Origin: Lachnotalea glycerini | GTDB lineage: Bacteria; Bacillota; Clostridia; Lachnospirales; Lachnospiraceae | NCBI RefSeq assembly: GCF_003201285.1 | Contig: NZ_QICS01000002.1 | Span: forward strand, 186,001 to 250,000 | Length of the DNA stretch: 64,000 nucleotides | Direction of reading: 5' to 3' | Part shown: one piece after another, positions 2,116 to 23,281 of the stretch | How the letters are laid out: each line of letters opens with the position of its first letter | How positions within the stretch are numbered: the first letter of the stretch is position 1 | The notes under the pieces: model-generated | The model's input: the letters and a program-made list of their open reading frames with translations, nothing else | What the model was told of the DNA's origin: nothing | Database searches by the model: none | Program-made: the position numbers and the translations under genes

Positions 2116-3063
2116 ATGGTAGATTGGAAAAAAATAGATGAAATTAATCCATATGTAAGAATGATGAGATTAAAAAAAGCAGCATCGTTAATTGGAAAAT
2201 GGAGAGATATAGACAATGTATTTACATATATCGCTGCTGGGAGCGGAGATTTTATTGTAGATGGAATCCGATATTCTCTTCATACAGGAAATGTAATTAT
2301 TATGCCGCCATATAAAACGCATTTGATTATATCTAATGGAAGTGAACCCTTAGTACAATATATCATGCATTTTGATTATTTTGAAAAATCAGAACGTGTT
2401 TTGCTTGAACATAAGGATGTACTTGACGAAGAAGAGAGGAAAATAGAAGTATCTGAGCAGGAACAATTGCTGGGACAGAATGTTACAATTGCTGAAATAC
2501 CTGATTTTGAGAGAAATGATATTATGAGAGATTATCTATGTTTAATGCGAGAATTTGAGGATAAAAAGCATGGTCGGGGAATCATGCTGAAATCAGGTTG
2601 CATTAACATTCTTGTAAAAACACTTAGAGCTTGCAGAACGCCTCAGGAAAGCCAGGTAGATAAGGACGCAAAAAAAACAAAATCTTGGATTCACATTGAA
2701 AAAACAATTGAGTATTTGCATAATTGTGCAATTCTGCCAGATAATGATACAATTGCATCTGACATTGGAGTTTCACCTAATTATTTAACAAAGGTTTTTC
2801 AAGAGTATCTGGGGATGTCATTGCATAAATATATCTTGAATATAAAAATAGAAAAAGCACAGCAGATTCTTTTAGCAGGTAATGCAAATGTTACAGAAAC
2901 AGCAGAAAAGTGTGGTTTTTCTAGTATACATGTATTTAGCAAAACATTTAGGAATATTGTAGGTATTTCACCTAGTGAATTTTTAAATCAAAATGTAAGC
3001 AGAGAACAACTAGAAGTTAATATGCGTAATTGCTTAAATATAAATAGAGAGGAAACTGTATAA
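2116..3063 (+). CDS. AraC-family transcriptional regulator
   Basis: The 315-residue protein has an N-terminal cupin-like sensing domain (about residues 20-100, with the GDFIVDG...GNVIIMPP pattern of AraC_binding domains). The C-terminal double helix-turn-helix is at about residues 205-300; the second recognition helix region reads TETAEKCGFSSIHVFSKTFR. It starts three bases after the permease gene, so it is co-transcribed with the importer and probably activates this operon in response to the imported sugar or its product. It is a cytoplasmic DNA-binding protein. The family and fold are clear; the ligand is unknown. Confidence 0.9.
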   Translation: MVDWKKIDEINPYVRMMRLKKAASLIGKWRDIDNVFTYIAAGSGDFIVDGIRYSLHTGNVIIMPPYKTHLIISNGSEPLVQYIMHFDYFEKSERVLLEHKDVLDEEERKIEVSEQEQLLGQNVTIAEIPDFERNDIMRDYLCLMREFEDKKHGRGIMLKSGCINILVKTLRACRTPQESQVDKDAKKTKSWIHIEKTIEYLHNCAILPDNDTIASDIGVSPNYLTKVFQEYLGMSLHKYILNIKIEKAQQILLAGNANVTETAEKCGFSSIHVFSKTFRNIVGISPSEFLNQNVSREQLEVNMRNCLNINREETV

Positions 3064-3083
3064 GTACAGTAAAAGGTGGAGAT

Positions 3084-5126
3084 ATGTGGATAGAAGGTAA
3101 TTACAGGCGTAATCTGATGGATATGCATATCGATGACTGGAATCCAGAATTCCTGTCAAAAATAAACATAGCTGAGTATGTGAACGCATTAAAGTCGGCC
3201 AATATTCAAGCAGCCATGGTAAAAGGGAAACCACATACAGGCCTTTGTTATTACCCTACAAAGATAGGAAGAATGCACAAAGGATTAAAAGAATTTGATT
3301 TTTTTGGAAATATGATTGAAAAATGTCATGAGAACAATATTTCAGTGATAGCGTATTTTACGCAGATCTTCGATAATTGGGCATATGAGGAACATCCTGA
3401 TTGGAGAGTTATTACTGCTGAAGGAAAAAATATGCGTGAATATAACGGACAACCTAATTTTAAGACGGGAAGATATGGCATTGTATGTCCTAACAATAAA
3501 GAATATCGGGAATATGTAAAAGCATGCTTAACTGAGATGAATACAATGTATGATTTTGAAGGTATGTTTTTAGATATGACATTTTGGCCAGAAGTATGTT
3601 ATTGCCCAAGCTGTCGTAAGCGGTACAAGGAAGAAATGGGGAAGGAACTTCCGAGAACAATTGATTGGAACGATTTTGTATGGAAAGAATATGTGTATAA
3701 ACGTGATGAATGGATGGCTGACTATGCAAAGTTTGCGACGAAATGTGTAAAGAGTATTAAGCCAAAGGTAACAATTGAACATCAATTTTCAAGAATTACA
3801 GGCTCTTGGGTGGATGGCAGTACAGAAATGTTAACTGAGGCTGTTGATTACGCAGGCGGAGACTACTATGGAGGATTTTTACAACAAACATTTATAAACA
3901 AATATTATAAAAATGTGTCACCTAACTTGCCATTTATTTATCATACATCGCGTTGTGATCCTGAATTAATTTTCCATACAACTACTAAAACAGAAGAAGA
4001 AATAATGCTTCATGTGATTACAGCACTTGTTCACAATGGCGCATTCTTATTAGTAGATGCAATTAATCCGGATGGTAGCATTGTACCTGAGGTATATCAC
4101 GACTTGATGAAGAGAATATATGGAAAAACAAGTCAATATGAAAAATATATAAATGGAAATTTATATCATGATGCTTCCATTTGGTTTGCATCACATGCAA
4201 AGTATGATCCTAACGAATGTAATATTGATGTTGTGGAGAAATCCTTTGAACCAAAATATTATATGGAATCTCCGGTAAGTGCAGCTTCTGTTATGAGAGA
4301 AAACAATATTCCGTTTGAGGTAATAGGAACTAAGAATATTTCATCGGACAATGCCAAAGTCCTGGTATTGTCGCATGTTGCAAACATACGTGAAGAAGAA
4401 ATGGATGAAATAGAAAAGTATATTAAAAACGGTGGAAATTTATATATTAGTGGACCTATTGCAAATGATAGGCTTCAAAAGATACTGGGAGTAAGAGTAA
4501 TAGGAAGAACTCCTCATGATTTTACCTATATGAGTCCTACCAAATTCGGTGAAGAATTATTCGATGGATTTACAAGGCAAACTCCACTGACTGTTACGAT
4601 GAGTCAGATAGAAATTGAAATAATTAGTGATGAGAATATGACGGTTTTAGCAACTCAGACATTACCATACACTATGACAAATACATATGAATTTGCTGCG
4701 ATCCACTCAAATCCACCAGGAATTTATACAAACATGTCATGTGCCATATTAAAAGAAATTGGAACTAGTAAAATCATCTGGACGGCGGCACCTATTGAAA
4801 TGTCTAAGCCATACATGAGCCGCCAGGTATTTAAAAGAATGATACAGTTATTGGTTGGTGAACCTACATTTGTTTCAAATGCACCGAAATTTGTAGAAGT
4901 GCTTTCATGGAATAAAGAAGGAACTGATTATTTTGCCGTTATTAACGAACAGGAAGAATCACCAATAGCACCGATGTATGATATAACAATTGATATTAAA
5001 AAAACAAATAGAAAAGCTTATATGCTTCCAAACAAAGAAGAAATTAAAACGGAAATGATAGGAAAGGATTTAATGAGAATTTACTTGCCAAAGTTAGAAG
5101 TTTTTCAAATGATTGCATTAAAATAG
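3084..5126 (+). CDS. Putative glycoside hydrolase, GHL6-like with a beta-galactosidase-trimerisation-like part
   Basis: The N-terminal half (about residues 1-340) looks like the hypothetical glycosyl hydrolase family 6 (GHL6) TIM barrel. Visible motifs include VIAYFTQIFDNWAYEEHPDW, the strand end GMFLDMTFWPEVCYCPSC (with a candidate acidic residue in LDMTFW) and VTIEHQFSR. The middle (about 350-480) resembles the class I glutamine-amidotransferase-like fold found in family 42 beta-galactosidases, including a KNGGNLYISGPIAN stretch. There is no signal peptide, so it should act in the cytoplasm on an imported glycoside. A CxxC pair (CYCPSC) is typical of this group. The ribosome site AAAGGTGG is 7 bases upstream of the ATG. 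Substrate and catalytic residues are not established; the downstream isomerases hint at fucosides or related sugars. Confidence 0.6.
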   Translation: MWIEGNYRRNLMDMHIDDWNPEFLSKINIAEYVNALKSANIQAAMVKGKPHTGLCYYPTKIGRMHKGLKEFDFFGNMIEKCHENNISVIAYFTQIFDNWAYEEHPDWRVITAEGKNMREYNGQPNFKTGRYGIVCPNNKEYREYVKACLTEMNTMYDFEGMFLDMTFWPEVCYCPSCRKRYKEEMGKELPRTIDWNDFVWKEYVYKRDEWMADYAKFATKCVKSIKPKVTIEHQFSRITGSWVDGSTEMLTEAVDYAGGDYYGGFLQQTFINKYYKNVSPNLPFIYHTSRCDPELIFHTTTKTEEEIMLHVITALVHNGAFLLVDAINPDGSIVPEVYHDLMKRIYGKTSQYEKYINGNLYHDASIWFASHAKYDPNECNIDVVEKSFEPKYYMESPVSAASVMRENNIPFEVIGTKNISSDNAKVLVLSHVANIREEEMDEIEKYIKNGGNLYISGPIANDRLQKILGVRVIGRTPHDFTYMSPTKFGEELFDGFTRQTPLTVTMSQIEIEIISDENMTVLATQTLPYTMTNTYEFAAIHSNPPGIYTNMSCAILKEIGTSKIIWTAAPIEMSKPYMSRQVFKRMIQLLVGEPTFVSNAPKFVEVLSWNKEGTDYFAVINEQEESPIAPMYDITIDIKKTNRKAYMLPNKEEIKTEMIGKDLMRIYLPKLEVFQMIALK

Positions 5127-5150: not shown

Positions 5151-6047
5151 ATGAAATATGGAATTTACTTTGCCTATTGGGAACAAGAATGGGGTGTTGA
5201 ACAAAAAAAATACATAGCAAAGGTGAAAGAGTTAGGTTTTGATATTTTAGAAATTTCTTGCGCAATGTTAAAAAATATTTCGAATCAGGAATTATTAGAA
5301 CTAAAAAAAATGGCAGACGATAATGGCATAATTTTGACTGCTGGGTACGGTCCAAATGATCAGGAAAATTTGGCTAGTGATAATCCGGAAATTGTCAAAC
5401 ATGCAATTAATTTTTATACGGACATATTAAAGAAACTCGAAATACTTAATATTCATACTTTCGGAGGTGGTATCTATTCCTATTGGCCGGTTGATTATAG
5501 TAAATCTATAGATAAGGTGGGCGATTGGGATAGAAGTGTCAAGAATGTCAGAACGGTTGGTAAAGTTGCTGGTAATTGCGGAGTGGATTATTGCTTGGAA
5601 GTTCTGAATCGTTTTGAGGGATATTTATTGAATACATGCATGGAATGTAAAAGTTTTGTGGAAGAGGTAGATATTCCAGCCGTGAAAATTATGCTTGATA
5701 CATTTCATATGAATATTGAAGAAGACAATATGATTGATGCAATCATACTTGCGGGTGATAAACTCGGACATTTCCATGTAGGAGAAAACAATAGAAGGTT
5801 ACCTGGAAAAGGAAATCTGCCATGGTATGAGATAGGCGCAGCTTTAAGGAAGATAGGGTACGATAAGAATATTGTTATGGAACCATTCGTAAAAAGTGGC
5901 GGTGGAGTAGGAAGTGACATCAAAATATGGAGAGATTTAAGCAAAGGAGCTACAATACAGCGACTAGATGAAGATGCTAAAAGTTCTGTAGCATACTTGA
6001 GATATGTTTTTAGTGGACCAAATTCAGACTATTCGGCAGAAAAATAA
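5151..6047 (+). CDS. Ketose 3-epimerase-like sugar isomerase (TIM barrel)
   Basis: The 298-residue protein belongs to the xylose-isomerase-like TIM barrels and most resembles D-tagatose/D-psicose 3-epimerases. The metal and catalytic residues of that group appear at the expected places: E150 (CLEVLNRF), D183 and H186 (LDTFHMNIEE), H209 (GHFHVGENNRRLPGKG) with R215, and E244 (VMEPF). These enzymes use Mn2+ or Co2+ to epimerise C3 of free keto-sugars in the cytoplasm. AGGAGG lies 10 bases before the ATG. It sits between the putative glycosidase and L-fucose isomerase, so it may act on the ketose that enzyme makes. The class is solid; the exact sugar is inferred. Confidence 0.8.
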   Translation: MKYGIYFAYWEQEWGVEQKKYIAKVKELGFDILEISCAMLKNISNQELLELKKMADDNGIILTAGYGPNDQENLASDNPEIVKHAINFYTDILKKLEILNIHTFGGGIYSYWPVDYSKSIDKVGDWDRSVKNVRTVGKVAGNCGVDYCLEVLNRFEGYLLNTCMECKSFVEEVDIPAVKIMLDTFHMNIEEDNMIDAIILAGDKLGHFHVGENNRRLPGKGNLPWYEIGAALRKIGYDKNIVMEPFVKSGGGVGSDIKIWRDLSKGATIQRLDEDAKSSVAYLRYVFSGPNSDYSAEK

Positions 6048-6079
6048 AATATTTATACTAAAAAGAAATGGAGTAATAT

Positions 6080-7849
6080 ATGAAAAATTATCCGGTTATA
6101 GGAATTAGACCTATTGTGGATTCCAGACGTTTCGGTATAAGGGATTCCTTGGAGGAGAAAGTAAGAGAAATGGCAGAGGCTGCTAAATCTCTTATGGAAG
6201 AAAATATTAGATATATTGATGGAAGTCCTGTAAAAGTTATCATATTTTCAGGAAGTATTGCAGGAGGAGAAGAGGCGGCACAATGTGAAGCCTTATTCTC
6301 TTCACAAAATGTCGTTGCTACATTAAGTGTCACTCCAAGCTGGTGCTATCCTCTTGAAACAATCGATTTAAATCCATTGACAATAAAAGCTATATGGGGA
6401 TTTAATGGGACTGAGCGCCCGGGAGCAGTTTATTTGGCCTCTGCACTTGCCGCTCATAATCAGATGAAGTTACCATGCTTTTCTATTTATGGAAGAGACG
6501 TTCAGGATATGGACGAAAAACAAATTCCGGGGGATGTACAAGAAAAGATTCTTCGATTTGCAAAATGTGCACTTGCTGTTGGACAGATGAAAAATAAAGC
6601 TTATATTGGTTTTGGCTCAGTTTCTATGGGAATTATGGGATCATATCTAGATCCATCATTTTATATTCACTATTTAGGTATGCGCCCGGAATGGGTTGAT
6701 ATGACGGAAATTCTCAGACGTGTTGAGCAAGATGTCTTTGATAAAGAAGAATATAAAAAAGCACTTATATGGGTGAAAAATTATTGTAAGGAAGGAAAAG
6801 ATCCTAATCCAGAGCATAGCGCACATACTAGAGAGCAAAAGGATAAAGAATGGGAATTTGTAATTAAAATGACCTTGATTATCCGTGACATTATGCTAGG
6901 AAATAAAAAATTGGATGAAATGGGATTTGAAGAAGAAGCATTAGGTAGAAACGGTTTATTTGGTGGTTTTCAAGGGCAAAGAATGTGGACAGATTATAAA
7001 CCAAATGGTGATTTTACAGAAGCAGTCCTAAATTCTACGTTTGATTGGAATGGAAAAAAACAACCAACCATTTTTGCTACAGAAAATGATAATTTAAATG
7101 GTCTAGCAATGATGTTCGGAAATCTTTTGACAGGTAAGGCAAGTGGCTTTTCGGATGTTCGCTGTTATTGGAGTCCAAAAGCAGTAGAGCGCGTGACAGG
7201 ATGGAAACCTGAGGGTATGGCGAAAGAAGGATTTATACATTTGATTAATTCAGGCTCAACTTGTATCGATGCAACAGGAAAATCAAAAGATCAAGATGGT
7301 AATTCAGTAATGAAATCATGGTGGGAAATGGAGGATAAGGATATTCAGGAATGTCTTGGTGCCACCGATTGGTGCCCGGCTGAACTTTGCCAGTTTAGGG
7401 GCGGTGGATATTCCTCACATTTCAAAACGGATGCCGAAATGCCATTAACTATGGTCAGAGTTAATATTGTAGATGGAAAAGGACCTGTTATACAAATTGC
7501 AGAAGGATTTAGTATTGTCCTCCCAGAAGAAGTACATAACAAAATAGATAACAGGACAGATCCAACCTGGCCTACTACATGGTTTGTACCAAGGATAAGT
7601 GGAAGCGGTGCTTTTAGAGATGTTTATACAGTGATGGCAAACTGGGGAGCAAATCATGGTGCTTTTATTCATGGTCATGTAGGCGCAGATATAATTACTA
7701 TGGCATCCATGCTAAGAATACCCGTTGTAATGCATAATGTTTTAGAAGAAAATATATTTAGACCACATGTATGGAGTTCATTTGGGACAAAAGACATGGA
7801 AGTAGCAGATTCAGAGGCTTGTAAAGCATTTGGTCCATTGTATAAGTGA
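6080..7849 (+). CDS. fucI: L-fucose isomerase family protein
   Basis: The 589-residue protein matches L-fucose isomerase in length (E. coli about 591) and motifs. The Mn2+ ligands are E335 (FATENDNLNG), D359 (GFSDVRCYWSP) and H526 (NWGANHGAFIHGHVGAD). The protein should interconvert L-fucose and L-fuculose, or D-arabinose and D-ribulose, in the cytoplasm. It is the last gene of the first cluster, 32 bases after the epimerase. No fuculokinase or fuculose-phosphate aldolase is present in the window, so the classical Fuc pathway is incomplete here. Family assignment is confident; L-fucose as the physiological substrate is less so, because FucI homologues also serve D-arabinose and related sugars. 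Confidence 0.85.
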   Translation: MKNYPVIGIRPIVDSRRFGIRDSLEEKVREMAEAAKSLMEENIRYIDGSPVKVIIFSGSIAGGEEAAQCEALFSSQNVVATLSVTPSWCYPLETIDLNPLTIKAIWGFNGTERPGAVYLASALAAHNQMKLPCFSIYGRDVQDMDEKQIPGDVQEKILRFAKCALAVGQMKNKAYIGFGSVSMGIMGSYLDPSFYIHYLGMRPEWVDMTEILRRVEQDVFDKEEYKKALIWVKNYCKEGKDPNPEHSAHTREQKDKEWEFVIKMTLIIRDIMLGNKKLDEMGFEEEALGRNGLFGGFQGQRMWTDYKPNGDFTEAVLNSTFDWNGKKQPTIFATENDNLNGLAMMFGNLLTGKASGFSDVRCYWSPKAVERVTGWKPEGMAKEGFIHLINSGSTCIDATGKSKDQDGNSVMKSWWEMEDKDIQECLGATDWCPAELCQFRGGGYSSHFKTDAEMPLTMVRVNIVDGKGPVIQIAEGFSIVLPEEVHNKIDNRTDPTWPTTWFVPRISGSGAFRDVYTVMANWGANHGAFIHGHVGADIITMASMLRIPVVMHNVLEENIFRPHVWSSFGTKDMEVADSEACKAFGPLYK

Positions 7850-19023: not shown

Positions 19024-19836
19024 ATGAGAATCGAAAGTAAATTGAGTATACGTCTTGCTCGTACAAAAGCGTCAAGACAAGCGATGAAAGAAAGAAAAAG
19101 TAGTAGAAGTGCAGCATCTAAAAAAAATACAACGTCGAATAAAAGTACGACAACAAACTCTATATTATCTGCACTAAACAGCAAAAAAACAACAGCATCC
19201 AAATATCAAACCTCTACCACAACACAATTAAAAACGAACTATACGGCAGTTAAGACTGTAGCGGGCAAAGTACAGGAAGATGCCGCAAAGCTGTTGGCAA
19301 CTGGTAGTGATTCACTTTTTGGAAAAGCACTCTCAGTAAAAGCAGCACAAGAAAATAGTACTGCAGCCGAAAATACGCTAGGTGAAACAAATGAATTGAC
19401 AGCGGCAGAATCAGCAAAGGCTAAGGAAAGTGTTTTAAAAGTTATCAATAGTTTTATTGATGATTATAATACGATGCTAAATAAGCTAGATAATATAGGT
19501 GGATCTTTAAATAACATGTATGCCAAGCAATTACGTAACTATGTCACACAAAATGAAACAGCACTTAAGAACATAGGTATAACAAAGACGAAAGCAGGAA
19601 CGCTCAGTGTGAATCAAGAAAAATTGAAAACCGCTGATATCTCTGCCATACAGAAAGTATTTGGAACAAACGGTTCCTTTGTATATAAAGTGGCATCAAA
19701 AAGTAAAAGTGTAGAGGTAAATGCAGAAACAAATCTGGCTTCCTTAAATAAGAGCACTTACAGCAGCTTTAACTACAACAAATCTGGAATCAGTTATAAT
19801 AGTGATAAAACCAGCAGCTATCATGCAAAGGGGTAG
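19024..19836 (+). CDS. Orphan FliD (flagellar cap) C-terminal-domain-like protein
   Basis: The 270-residue protein has a basic, Ser/Thr/Lys-rich N-terminal part (residues 1-70). The region of about 90-215 recalls the C-terminal domain of the flagellar hook-associated protein FliD: VINSFIDDYNTMLNKLDN at 140-157, then LKNIGITKTKAGTLSVNQEK at 181-200 (in FliD, the LxxIGI...G.L.ld..KL pattern). FliD is normally longer than 400 residues, and its N-terminal D0 domain is missing. There are no other flagellar genes here, no signal peptide and no membrane segment. GGGAG precedes the ATG. It is followed by a strong terminator. A surface or secreted role controlled by the upstream two-component system is an inference; the true function is unknown. 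Confidence 0.6.
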   Translation: MRIESKLSIRLARTKASRQAMKERKSSRSAASKKNTTSNKSTTTNSILSALNSKKTTASKYQTSTTTQLKTNYTAVKTVAGKVQEDAAKLLATGSDSLFGKALSVKAAQENSTAAENTLGETNELTAAESAKAKESVLKVINSFIDDYNTMLNKLDNIGGSLNNMYAKQLRNYVTQNETALKNIGITKTKAGTLSVNQEKLKTADISAIQKVFGTNGSFVYKVASKSKSVEVNAETNLASLNKSTYSSFNYNKSGISYNSDKTSSYHAKG

Positions 19837-19884
19837 GTTATTAATAATAGTAATGAAAGTATATTATTAAAATAGAAGAGTATT

Positions 19885-19922
19885 GAAAAGGGAAAGAATT
19901 AACTAAGATTCTTTCCCTTTTC
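19885..19922 (+). terminator. Strong hairpin after the FliD-like gene
   Basis: GAAAAGGGAAAGAAT (19885-19899) and ATTCTTTCCCTTTTC (19908-19922) form a perfect 15-base stem with an 8-base loop. The A-rich and T-rich arms let it act as a terminator in either direction. It ends 13 bases before the left arm of the 25-base inverted repeat. Confidence 0.75.
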
Positions 19923-19935
19923 ATACATAAATGGA

Positions 19936-19960
19936 CGCAGTATATAACATACCATACCCT
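19936..19960 (+). repeat. Left 25-base inverted repeat flanking the recombinase gene
   Basis: This 25-base sequence (starting CGCAGTATATAAC and ending CATACCCT) is found as its exact reverse complement at 21354-21378. The match stops precisely at 25 bases on both sides. The two copies enclose the tyrosine recombinase gene, as expected for recombination sites of an invertible DNA segment. Confidence 0.85.
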
Positions 19961-20165
19961 ATATTATTGTATATTTCGACAGAATTTATTATACATCAAC
20001 CACATATTATTTGTCAAATAGCAACTTAATTTATTATTGTAGTGTTGTAATTAGGAAAATATAAATAATATAATATGAAATGCAAGACGTTTTTGGTGTT
20101 TTTGATTAAATTCGCCGTCAGACCAAGCGTCAGGTAATATATAATCAAGCAAAGGAGATTTTGTA
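19961..20165 (+). promoter_or_regulatory. Leader and promoter of the recombinase gene inside the repeat-bounded segment
   Basis: A usable promoter is TTGTAA (20045-20050), an 18-base spacer and TATAAT (20069-20074). A CGTCAG direct repeat at 20116-20121 and 20128-20133, with a GCCGTCA heptamer at 20114-20120 that recurs just after the gene's stop (21293-21299), may be arm-type binding sites; these are short, so uncertain. No gene is seen here. Confidence 0.4.
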
Positions 20166-21293
20166 ATGTCACGCAGAGGAGAAAACATTTATAAACGCAA
20201 AGATGGACGTTGGGAGGGAAGGCTGATGAAGCAAGATAAAAAATATCAGTATTTCTATGCCCGAACCTATAAAGAGGTGAAAGGAAAAATGAAACTTTTT
20301 CTGGAGCAAAAAGATTTTTCTAAAAAAGGGCAGTCAGATCAGTTAAATCATGCTCCCAAACTATTTGAAGCGTGGCTTGTTGGAGAAATTTCTCTTAGGG
20401 TAAAACCATCCACCTATGAAAGCTATTATTGTTGTATGCATAGGCATGTAATTCCATTCTTTTCAGAAAGCGAAAATAACAAGATAACGCAGGATTCGAT
20501 TGCAGGCTTTGTTCGAATGGTAAAAGAAAAGCAAGAGCTTGCTGAAGCTTCCAAAAAAAAAATACTTGCAATTTTTAAAATATCGCTGAAAGAAATATTA
20601 AAAGATTCGCCAGAATGTCATTTCTTGATTGATTTAGTCAGACTTCCTAAAACAGAGGACAAAGAAGTGCAGGTTTTCTCTATGAAAGAACAAAGGCTGA
20701 TTGTAGACGCCGCTTTACATTCACAAGATAGACGTGCAATTGGGATCGTTGTATGCTTTTATACAGGAATACGTCTTGGTGAGCTTTGTGCTTTAAAGTG
20801 GAGTGATATTGATATAGAAACAGGTACGATGTCTATCATGAGAACGGTGTCCAGAACTAGAATCTTTGAAGAGGAACCTTATAAAACGGTATTACTTGTT
20901 GGAACACCCAAAAGTAGAAAATCAGTCAGAAAAATTCCTCTACCCGCATTTTTACTGAAATTGATAAATGAAAGTATAGAGTGCGATTTTAATCATGAGT
21001 ATATATTTTCCGGAAAAGATGTGCCTTCTGACCCTCGTAGTTACCAAAAGCTATTTAAGAAAATATTAAAAGAGTTGAAATTGCAGGAACGTAAATTTCA
21101 TGCAATACGTCATACCTTTGCCACTCGTGCTCTAGAATTAGGCGTAGATATAAAAACACTTAGTGAAATATTAGGTCATTCAAGTGTTTCTATTACACTT
21201 GACATTTATGCGCATTCACTTATGGAACAAAAAAAAGTTGCCATAGAAAAATTTAATGATATGTATATGCTTAATGTCAAACAAAATGCATAG
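20166..21293 (+). CDS. Tyrosine recombinase (site-specific integrase)
   Basis: The 375-residue recombinase has an N-terminal AP2-like arm-binding part (MSRRGENIYKRKDGRWEGR, residues 1-50), a core-binding SAM-like domain (about 65-160) and a complete catalytic domain. The active residues are R203 (YTGIRLGEL), K249 (TPKS), H312 and R315 (HAIRHTFATRA), H338 (LGHSSVSIT) and nucleophile Y348 (LDIYAH), so it should be active. AAAGGAG precedes the ATG. It stands alone, with no excisionase, relaxase or phage genes, but is enclosed by a perfect 25-base inverted repeat. This supports a role in inverting its own segment (phase variation) rather than in mobility. Related recombinases with this N terminus are often found beside surface-polysaccharide loci in Lachnospiraceae (from memory). 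Confidence 0.9.
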   Translation: MSRRGENIYKRKDGRWEGRLMKQDKKYQYFYARTYKEVKGKMKLFLEQKDFSKKGQSDQLNHAPKLFEAWLVGEISLRVKPSTYESYYCCMHRHVIPFFSESENNKITQDSIAGFVRMVKEKQELAEASKKKILAIFKISLKEILKDSPECHFLIDLVRLPKTEDKEVQVFSMKEQRLIVDAALHSQDRRAIGIVVCFYTGIRLGELCALKWSDIDIETGTMSIMRTVSRTRIFEEEPYKTVLLVGTPKSRKSVRKIPLPAFLLKLINESIECDFNHEYIFSGKDVPSDPRSYQKLFKKILKELKLQERKFHAIRHTFATRALELGVDIKTLSEILGHSSVSITLDIYAHSLMEQKKVAIEKFNDMYMLNVKQNA

Positions 21294-21610
21294 CCGTCAA
21301 TTGCTCCGTCTATAATTAAGCTGACATCTGATAAATGCAGAATTATATGTAAAAGGGTATGGTATGTTATATACTGCGAATTAGCATATAATTATTAATA
21401 CAATTATAGTTGCCAATTTTTCCTTTATTATTAACTGCTGTATAAAATAAGTTTAACCTATATTTAGAGAAAATTCATTAAAAATTAAAATGAAGAGGTG
21501 GCAGAATAGTGAATGAAACTGTAGAAAAGTAAAAATGAGCTAAATTAGTTCTAAATAAGTGATATTGGTTGCTAAATGACAAGAAAATCGAAATGGCAGA
21601 GGTGATTTTT
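21294..21610. other. Spacer between recombinase and chemoreceptor genes
   Basis: Apart from the right inverted repeat (21354-21378), this 317-base AT-rich stretch holds no gene. TATAAA near 21451 lacks a convincing -35. A GAAGAGGTGG stretch near 21490 resembles a ribosome site but leads to no sustained reading frame. Any promoter for the chemoreceptor could lie here or inside the invertible segment. Confidence 0.4.
21354..21378 (-). repeat. Right 25-base inverted repeat flanking the recombinase gene
   Basis: This is the exact reverse complement of 19936-19960. The distance between the inner ends is 1393 bases. It ends 232 bases before the chemoreceptor start, so inversion would change what lies upstream of that gene. 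Confidence 0.85.
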
Positions 21611-23281
21611 ATGAAGAATTTTAAAGATTTTAGTATTTCCCGTAAGCTCTTGACAGGCTTTTTAACGCTCACATTTATTTTGATTGTGGTTGGTGGTGTA
21701 GGTATTACCGGCATGGTTCAGATTAATAAAATGGATACCTATATGTATAAGGATAAGACTGTTCCGATTACAAGCCTGGTTAGTGCGATACAAAGCTTGT
21801 ATCAAGTTCGTGTTGATTCAGAAAATATGCTCGTGCAAGTTGGTGACACGCAAAAACTCGAAGAATTGGAACAAAGCTATAATAGTGAAAAGGCCAATTT
21901 TCTTAGTATGACTGATAGTTATCTTGACACAGTAGAAACGGCTGATTCGATAGCACTAGTCAATGAAGCAAAACAGTTATTTAACGATTCGTTTGACCCT
22001 GCAATACAAAAGACTCTCGAGGCTGTAAAAGCAGGTAAGCAAGAAACAGCAATTGCTGCACTGGAAGCACAGGAAGAAGATATACAAAAGATATTTGATG
22101 ATTTTGAACTTTTGCTTTCGAATCGAATGAGCAGTATTAAAAGCTCCAGTGATACGAATGACAGCACCGCTGGCGTATTGACAATCTTGTTGATTGCTTG
22201 TGTCATACTGGGAGCAGGAATAGCGGTATACCTTGGCTTGAAAATATCTAAAATGATTAGTAAGCCAATTGAACAAGTAGTAGAGGCAGCAGAAAAAATT
22301 GCATTGGGGCATGTTGATGTTCATTTAGAAAATATCAATTCAAAAGATGAAACGGGGCAGCTTGCGAATACATTTATGAAAATGCTTGACGGCATTAAAC
22401 AGCAGGTTTTAGCAGCGGAAAGTGTAAGTAATGGAGATTTTACAATGGAAGTACAACTGCGTTCAGATCAGGATATCCTTGGGCTTGCATTGCAGAAAAT
22501 TATAAAGGATTTGAATCAGACATTAAAGCTAATTAGCTCAGCAGCGGAGCAAGTCAGTATGGGATCAGATCAGGTCTCACTTGCGGCACAGGCACTGGCA
22601 TCAGGAGCTACGGAGCAGGCAGCGGCAGTGGAAGAATTAAGTGCATCTATAACCGATGTAGCGACTCAGTCAGAGCAAAATGTTTCTAGTGTGCGTAATG
22701 CTTCTGACTACGTATCTCAGGCCGGTGTGGGAATTAATGAAAGTAATGAGCATATGAAGCAGCTCAATACGGCAATGAAAGAAATCGGTGATGCTTCTGA
22801 AAAAATATCCGGCATTACAAAGACGATTGAGGATATCGCAGCACAGACAAATCTTTTGGCGTTAAATGCTGCCATAGAAGCCGCTAGAGCAGGTGATGCA
22901 GGGAAAGGCTTTGCAGTGGTTGCAGATGAAGTTCGTGATTTGGCGGCTAAATCAGCCGAGGCGGTGAAACAGACAGCAGAACTAATTGGACATTCTGTCA
23001 ACACTGTTTCGGAAGGCGAAAGACTGGCAAATGAGACAGTACAAATTCTTCAAGATGTAGCGATAAAATCAGGACTTGTTGAGGAAGCAGTACAACAAAT
23101 TGCTGAAGCATCCTCTGAGCAGGCACAGGCGATAGAACAGATTAATGAGGGCTTATCACAGGTTTCCGCTGTCATTCAGACAAATGCAGCTACAGCAGAA
23201 GAAAGCTCAGCTTCTAGTGAAGAACTGGCTGCACAGGCACAGACATTACAACAAGAAGTGAAAAAGTTTAAACTTCAATAA
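21611..23281 (+). CDS. Methyl-accepting chemotaxis protein
   Basis: The 556-residue transmembrane receptor has TM1 at 12-34, an extracellular four-helix-bundle sensor at about 35-185 (4HB_MCP type), TM2 at 188-210, a HAMP domain at 211-263, and a long cytoplasmic coiled signalling domain. The highly conserved tip is at about 406-445 ([20 protein letters not shown]). It signals to a CheA-CheW array. The ATG at 21611 is preferred over one 42 bases upstream because AGAGGTG lies at the right distance. The only other flagellum-related sequence in the window is the FliD-like orphan. A terminator follows at 23448. If the segment upstream inverts, this receptor is the first gene that could be switched. 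Confidence 0.9.

Follow-up and report, generated by a model that had tools for sequence, protein, structure and literature searches.

In the H segment of Salmonella the gene of the invertase Hin lies, together with an outward promoter, inside the DNA that is inverted. The locus analyzed in this work likewise holds the enzyme gene and an outward promoter inside the segment, but Hin is a serine recombinase, whereas the enzyme described below is a tyrosine recombinase. Hin is also named as an invertase encoded inside its own segment by Sekulovic et al. 2018 (PMC5903667), and the parts of that paper considered here report inversion signatures near chemoreceptor and chemotaxis genes in Clostridia and an 844 bp fimbrial segment of Providencia stuartii that encloses a recombinase gene. 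Since both are reported there, the general kind of locus (inversions near chemotaxis genes, a segment enclosing its recombinase) is already known. Those small segments bounded by inverted repeats, some near chemoreceptors and one enclosing a recombinase, resemble the cassette of this work; the sites are given near genes, and this cassette family, its matched 7-nt spacers, arm motifs and recombinase-less relatives are not described in the same parts of the paper. In the RecV switches of Clostridioides difficile, compared here by their description (PMC5903667, in part), a tyrosine recombinase also inverts a short segment upstream of its target, but RecV acts in trans on several sites, whereas the gene studied here lies inside the segment and its site is unique in the genome. 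The part of a 2025 inverton survey considered here reports integrases enriched near invertons (PMC11892184). This cassette family with arm motifs was not recognised in searches of the open-licence literature, which is not proof of its absence.

The window, a stretch of 64,000 nucleotides from Lachnotalea glycerini (contig NZ_QICS01000002.1, positions 186,001 to 250,000 of the forward strand), had been predicted from its letters to hold an invertible segment with its own tyrosine recombinase. Our analysis supports this original prediction: it is likely that 19936-21378 is an invertible promoter cassette carrying its own recombinase. The support for the predicted inversion comes mostly from relatives, namely from their flanking repeats, matched spacers, contig ends at the sites and opposite orientations.

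The 1443-bp segment and its recombinase

The main elements of the locus are the following.

19936..19960, + strand: left inverted repeat, a core site with outer arm CGCAGTA at 19936-19942 and 7-nt spacer TATAACA at 19943-19949 (arm/spacer pattern from the subfamily comparison)
20166..21293, + strand: tyrosine recombinase (integrase) gene, 375 aa, Pfam Phage_integrase 3.1e-28
21354..21378, - strand: right inverted repeat, a core site with outer arm 21372-21378 and spacer 21365-21371
21611..23281, + strand: chemoreceptor (4HB_MCP, HAMP and MCPsignal by Pfam), predicted target of the switch

The arms 19936-19960 and 21354-21378 are complementary at 25/25 positions, and at up to 3 mismatches they are the only matches to the repeat arm in the window (shuffle mean 0.00); the genome as a whole (4,862,006 bases, 48 contigs) gave no further match at this threshold. 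The recombinase gene, at 20166-21293 on the + strand, is the single gene between them. The perfect 25-base repeat and the exactly one enclosed gene of the original prediction thus stand, as does the chemoreceptor on the right, which is of the 4HB type by Pfam and starts with the ATG at 21611. The gene on the left had been called FliD-like; this was not confirmed, the 270-aa product matching no Pfam or NCBIfam family at E<=0.001.

The recombinase has an open reading frame and keeps R203, K249, H312, R315, H338 and Y348, which are invariant in an alignment of 27 sequences and which we take to be the catalytic residues; the predicted complete catalytic set is borne out to this extent. A weak STING_LBD Pfam match, under its cut-off, was disregarded. 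In a search with the structure model of the enzyme (mean pLDDT 83.7, pTM 0.68, residues 340-348 poor), chains of the Tn1549 integrase occupied ranks 1-6 with TM of about 0.56-0.60 by query length, followed by XerA and then by full-length lambda Int, while by sequence XerA ranked first. The N-terminus of the model consists of three strands and a helix (E8-10, E16-21, E27-32, H35-53), and arm-binding domains of IntTn916 have been described as three strands and a helix in the part of the source considered (PMC8138268); the N-terminal domain of the window enzyme is a predicted arm-binding domain.

By fold rank and by the modelled N-terminus the enzyme is therefore like the integrases of the Tn1549/Tn916 type and of lambda, and the catalytic domain R..K..H-R..H..Y expected of a Tn916-type integrase is present (Pfam and invariant columns, with presumed residue roles). 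Those integrases move elements, driving excision and integration, whereas here two core sites stand in inverted orientation with the integrase gene alone between them, and for this reason we class the enzyme as a relative of such integrases and not as part of a mobile element. A Tn916-type integrase, probably with arm sites, that serves as the invertase of its own cassette would probably be new within a known kind.

Flanking repeats, core sites and arm motifs among relatives

The genome of the window holds eight further, weaker recombinase matches (best E 9.8e-16), and the two other genomes of its genus gave no match better than E 1.5e-23. Close relatives (54-68%) were found at 46 places in a different genus of this family, in 25/25 of the genomes examined, one of which corresponds by its coordinates to Clostridium sp. 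Marseille-P2415. Distant relatives are widespread across the family (94/397 genomes at E<=1e-40). The distant set comprised 60 family places with flanks and nine plasmid loci (Enterococcus, Ruminococcus, Vescimonas), and all loci were turned to the recombinase strand before repeats and layout were compared. Among plasmid and phage collections only relatives below 60% identity were met. A single-protein scan of viral contigs found no relative; an alignment scan of viral contigs gave 79 loci, and seven of the 15 checked had a flanking repeat.

A flanking inverted repeat with a score of at least 15 was found at 50/75 recombinase loci, the window included, vs 0/373 control placements in the same loci, and at a score of 13 the counts were 53/75 and 1/373; 25/75 loci lacked a repeat at score 15. 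The 75 loci are those of a 77-locus set, which includes strains of the same species and shares seven loci with the subfamily set below, minus L094 and L128 with too little flank; L083, from a Ruminococcus albus plasmid and with no repeat found, stood outside this set. A conserved inverted repeat near homologous recombinases, on which the original prediction had been made to depend, is thus present.

Several loci had peculiarities of their own. On Enterococcus megaplasmids one recombinase locus (L078), in which no repeat was found, lies upstream of WxL-domain genes, and another (L079, with the homologous L086-L088), in which repeats were found, upstream of SecA2/SecY2. At L143 a long imperfect inverted homology (score 133 over ~500 bp) lies on both sides of the cassette with 726-aa ORFs on each side, and a shufflon-like exchange is possible there. 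In a scaffold of G400 (L347:1297-2107) the 405 bp on one side of an N are repeated exactly on the other, where a cassette has its right end; this is an assembly artefact.

The subfamily formed by the window and its 46 close relatives (47 loci) divides into 23 loci with repeats, among which L286 and L287 represent a single locus split between two G399 contigs, and 24 without. The topology of the recombinase tree, which excludes L059 and L286, nests the no-repeat genes within the repeat-bearing group, next to the branch that holds the recombinases of the window, L258 and L267. The clade whose members have neither flanking repeats nor arm motifs (L057, L069, L257, L259-L266, L268-L280) possibly represents a stand-alone enzyme acting in trans.

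The subfamily repeats share one layout: the outer arm is CGCAGTw, next comes the 7-nt spacer, and the inner arm is more variable. Outer-arm variants are CGCTGT, on the right in the L060 type, and CGCGGT, on the left in L296. The repeat of the window exceeds in length those of its close relatives. Seven spacer types were distinguished: TATAACA (window), TAACTAA, TAACCAA, TATTCAA, TATCCAA, TATCCTA and TACTTGA. The sites and their matched spacers are read directly from the sequence: wherever both sites of a repeat-bearing subfamily cassette are complete the left and right spacers are identical, and they differ between cassettes. At orthologous loci TATTCAA in G322 corresponds to TATCCAA in G399, and the left and right spacers both carry the change. 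Such a match would be enforced if the two sites recombine with each other, and the layout suggests that the subfamily repeats are recombination sites.

A second motif, CCGTC-N8-CGTC, occurs twice in the window cassette.

20115..20131, + strand: candidate arm-type site pair, upstream of the recombinase start
21294..21310, + strand: candidate arm-type site pair, directly after the recombinase stop

Among the repeat-bearing loci it lies upstream of the recombinase start in 22/23 and near the stop in 18/23; none of the 24 no-repeat loci has it, and shuffled sequences gave 0/2300. It also occurs in all six of the short switches listed below, five with two pairs and L340 with one. The motif therefore tracks the invertible DNA and not the gene, and is read as a candidate accessory (arm-type) site of the recombinase.

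The core-site pattern CGCAGTW-N7-WACTGYG was matched in 9/12 genomes (reversed control 0/12); the genome of the window had no match to this stricter pattern. Three genomes (G401, G407 and G412) contain six inverted pairs of core sites, 364-414 bp long and without a recombinase, each with core sites, CCGTC-N8-CGTC, a perfect outward promoter and an adjacent chemoreceptor match.

L339:2412-2776, short switch
L340:2917-3282, short switch
L341:2652-3026, short switch
L342:2689-3102, short switch
L343:2460-2823, short switch
L344:2836-3209, short switch

These pairs are probable promoter-only switches served in trans. In the same three genomes one recombinase lacks repeats (L257, L277, L265) and another is self-flanked (L284, L296, L288). 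In G002, of the genus of the window, a single perfect core site CGCAGTA-N7-TACTGCG (L318:1303-1323) was seen ~200 bp upstream of a chemoreceptor homologue (58%); this locus had no recombinase.

A recombinase between terminal repeats might also be a minimal mobile element, similar to an insertion sequence, that moves and does not invert. The likeness of the enzyme to Tn1549/Tn916-type integrases, the several copies per genome at different places (four in G322) and the many kinds of genes that cassettes adjoin fit such an element. Its ends should be fixed, whereas the spacers vary between cassettes yet match within each; loci are colinear between species (for example L058/L070) with the same kind of target in 22/22, and recombinase-less segments with the same sites and promoter precede chemoreceptors. 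Inverted sites should moreover yield inversion and not excision. We therefore consider a mobile element highly improbable. Classification as an insertion sequence was likewise rejected, the same terminal repeat not being found at different insertions: spacers differ even within G322.

Outward promoter and predicted states of the chemoreceptor

Three further elements lie at the left end of the cassette.

19884..19923, no strand assigned: hairpin left of the cassette, 16-bp perfect stem, fold z -7.73 and -6.70 on the two strands
19988..20017, - strand: P_out, outward sigma-70-type promoter TTGACA-N18-TATAAT, 12 of 12 match, pointing left as assembled, activity predicted
20045..20074, + strand: possible recombinase promoter TTGTAA-N18-TATAAT, 10 of 12 match, weak

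Promoter-like sites across the scanned region as a whole were not above expectation (11 vs 8.8 in shuffles). P_out and its conservation are observed directly: a promoter without mismatches points outward in 22/23 repeat-bearing subfamily loci and toward the recombinase in 0/23 (shuffle mean 0.0). In the wider set, limited to the 59 of the 77 loci with a repeat score of at least 13 and at least 80 bp upstream, an outward promoter was present at 15 loci without mismatch and at 28 with up to one, and one toward the recombinase at 0 and 1, respectively (shuffle means 0.0 and 0.45).

The linkage to chemoreceptors is equally plain. Of the repeat-bearing subfamily loci 22 include a right flank, and each of these continues with a chemoreceptor match on the recombinase strand, of types that include 4HB and dCache; at L289 this gene is split over frames, and at L296 the receptor is just 36% identical to that of the window. 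The recombinase gene of L059 carries an in-frame TGA, and both it and the L289 receptor suggest decayed copies or sequence errors. At the repeat-less loci L257 and L259-L266 (9/9) the interval between the recombinase and receptor genes holds a perfect promoter directed at the receptor, and at L280, whose receptor lies on the opposite side, a perfect outward promoter serves it; in the remaining no-repeat loci no chemoreceptor lies within the stretch examined. Such a fixed perfect promoter facing the receptor in repeat-less relatives supports P_out as the promoter of the receptor.

When the segment is inverted in silico both repeats remain unchanged, and the end of the -10 box comes to lie 285 bp before the ATG of the chemoreceptor. 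The locus thus shows three features expected of an inverton driven by a tyrosine recombinase: inverted sites, a promoter inside, and a gene outside that the promoter reaches after in-silico inversion. Inversion had been predicted to swap the flanking DNA faced by the recombinase promoter; what lies upstream of the chemoreceptor does change in silico, but the promoter that matters is probably the separate minus-strand P_out and not that of the recombinase.

The hairpin probably halts transcription from both sides. It does not appear in a terminator scan of 19830-21700, which found none, and so its terminator role is inferred; of the left gene described originally as terminator-closed there stands a hairpin stable on both strands, but not a listed terminator.

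In the proposed mechanism the recombinase would bind the two inverted core sites and probably both internal CCGTC-N8-CGTC pairs, and strand exchange inside the identical 7-nt spacer would invert the 1443-bp segment, with which P_out would travel. As assembled, P_out is aimed left into the hairpin, which leaves the chemoreceptor without it, and the receptor is predicted to be OFF or low; after inversion P_out would be aimed at the receptor and likely switch it on. The recombinase gene would retain its own upstream region in both states.

The same scan found no terminator between the recombinase and the chemoreceptor, and read-through could therefore express the receptor in the 'OFF' state. The segment might then invert with the receptor driven not by P_out but by the recombinase promoter, ON as assembled, and this would suit the co-directional genes and the assembled orientation seen in 22/22 subfamily assemblies. 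We regard it as unlikely: the conserved perfect promoter is P_out, no mismatch-free promoter being found that points at the recombinase, in repeat-less relatives the receptor is faced directly by a perfect promoter, and the outward promoter is retained in 6/6 recombinase-less short switches.

Orientation of cassettes and significance of the proposed switch

The strain is represented by a sole assembly, in which the window segment has one orientation. In the subfamily an inverted assembly of a chemoreceptor cassette was found at 0/22 loci, the receptor being always on the same side, and in 6/6 short switches the promoter points away from the receptor. The OFF-like orientation therefore dominates in sequenced cultures, either from a bias of the reaction or from selection. 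No inversion was found among Enterococcus raffinosus strains, whose orientation was uniform at all three loci compared (2, 3 and 4 strains), and the 15 checked viral loci gave no flipped pair.

Among more distant relatives the same target was found on opposite sides of like-oriented cassettes, in one genome at L135/L144 (cassettes 78.0% and a helicase-like target 80.7% identical at the nucleotide level) and also at L114/L145 (TadZ-like target) and L089/L121. In the last pair (L089:5255-6607 and L121:2317-3660) the cassettes adjoin a gene with a Cas12f1-like TNB domain, in both orientations. Flipped copies, proposed earlier as a check, thus exist as opposite orientations beside the same target in distant pairs, but not in the subfamily (0/22). 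With both neighbours called by a simple ORF caller (L081, L086-L088, L143 and three incomplete loci excluded), genes point away from 47 cassettes on the right only in 20, on the left only in seven, on both sides in 19 and on neither in one. At L124 epimerase-family genes (2672-3562 and 5527-6414) flank one cassette, both pointing away, and inversion could toggle between two gene sets.

Draft assemblies supply a further line of evidence. In G399 the first bases of contigs C16 and C22 are in both cases the 17-bp repeat of a single cassette, and contig C12 likewise opens, to the base, on the 13-bp perfect stretch within the repeat of another; this second case is one-sided, since C12 and C16 share an overlap of 1730 identical bases. 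In G412 a 21-bp site forms the exact end of contig C30 and also the exact start of contig C7. Its flanks match the two sides of L340, a short switch in G401, and neither contig contains the intervening segment. Such base-exact ends at three loci would be expected if both orientations were present in the reads, and suggest that they were. Among 23 listed contig ends two lie on a repeat edge (L282, L286), and by eye the starts of L297-L304 show no obvious site; the contig-end evidence therefore comes from G399 and G412.

The single orientation in the sole assembly and the loss of repeats in the sister clade would also be seen if the window copy were a relic, descended from a switch and now fixed. 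It is very unlikely to be one, as its 25-bp repeat is perfect and exceeds those of close relatives in length, the recombinase keeps an open frame and its presumed catalytic residues, and P_out matches at 12 of 12 positions. An invertible cassette remains the preferred reading.

We give an even chance to a broader proposal, in which the window belongs to a chemoreceptor phase-variation system where integrases of the mobile-element type have been made invertases. Three forms would coexist in it: self-contained cassettes with recombinase, outward promoter, core and arm sites; recombinase-less promoter switches of 364-414 bp that retain these sites and motifs; and a stand-alone recombinase lineage, which has lost its repeats and may serve the short switches in trans. 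The fixed asymmetry of arm sites may explain the dominance of the OFF orientation.

The natural series of self-encoded cassette, recombinase-less switch and stand-alone enzyme could show a path from integrase to gene switch and could reveal if arm sites favour one direction of inversion. With enzyme, sites and promoter all on 1.4 kb, the cassette is a compact test system, and contig ends on core sites are a possible marker of active switches in draft assemblies. For the bacteria themselves, the findings suggest that chemoreceptors, and not surface structures alone, are switched randomly, in which case sister cells would differ in the signals they sense.
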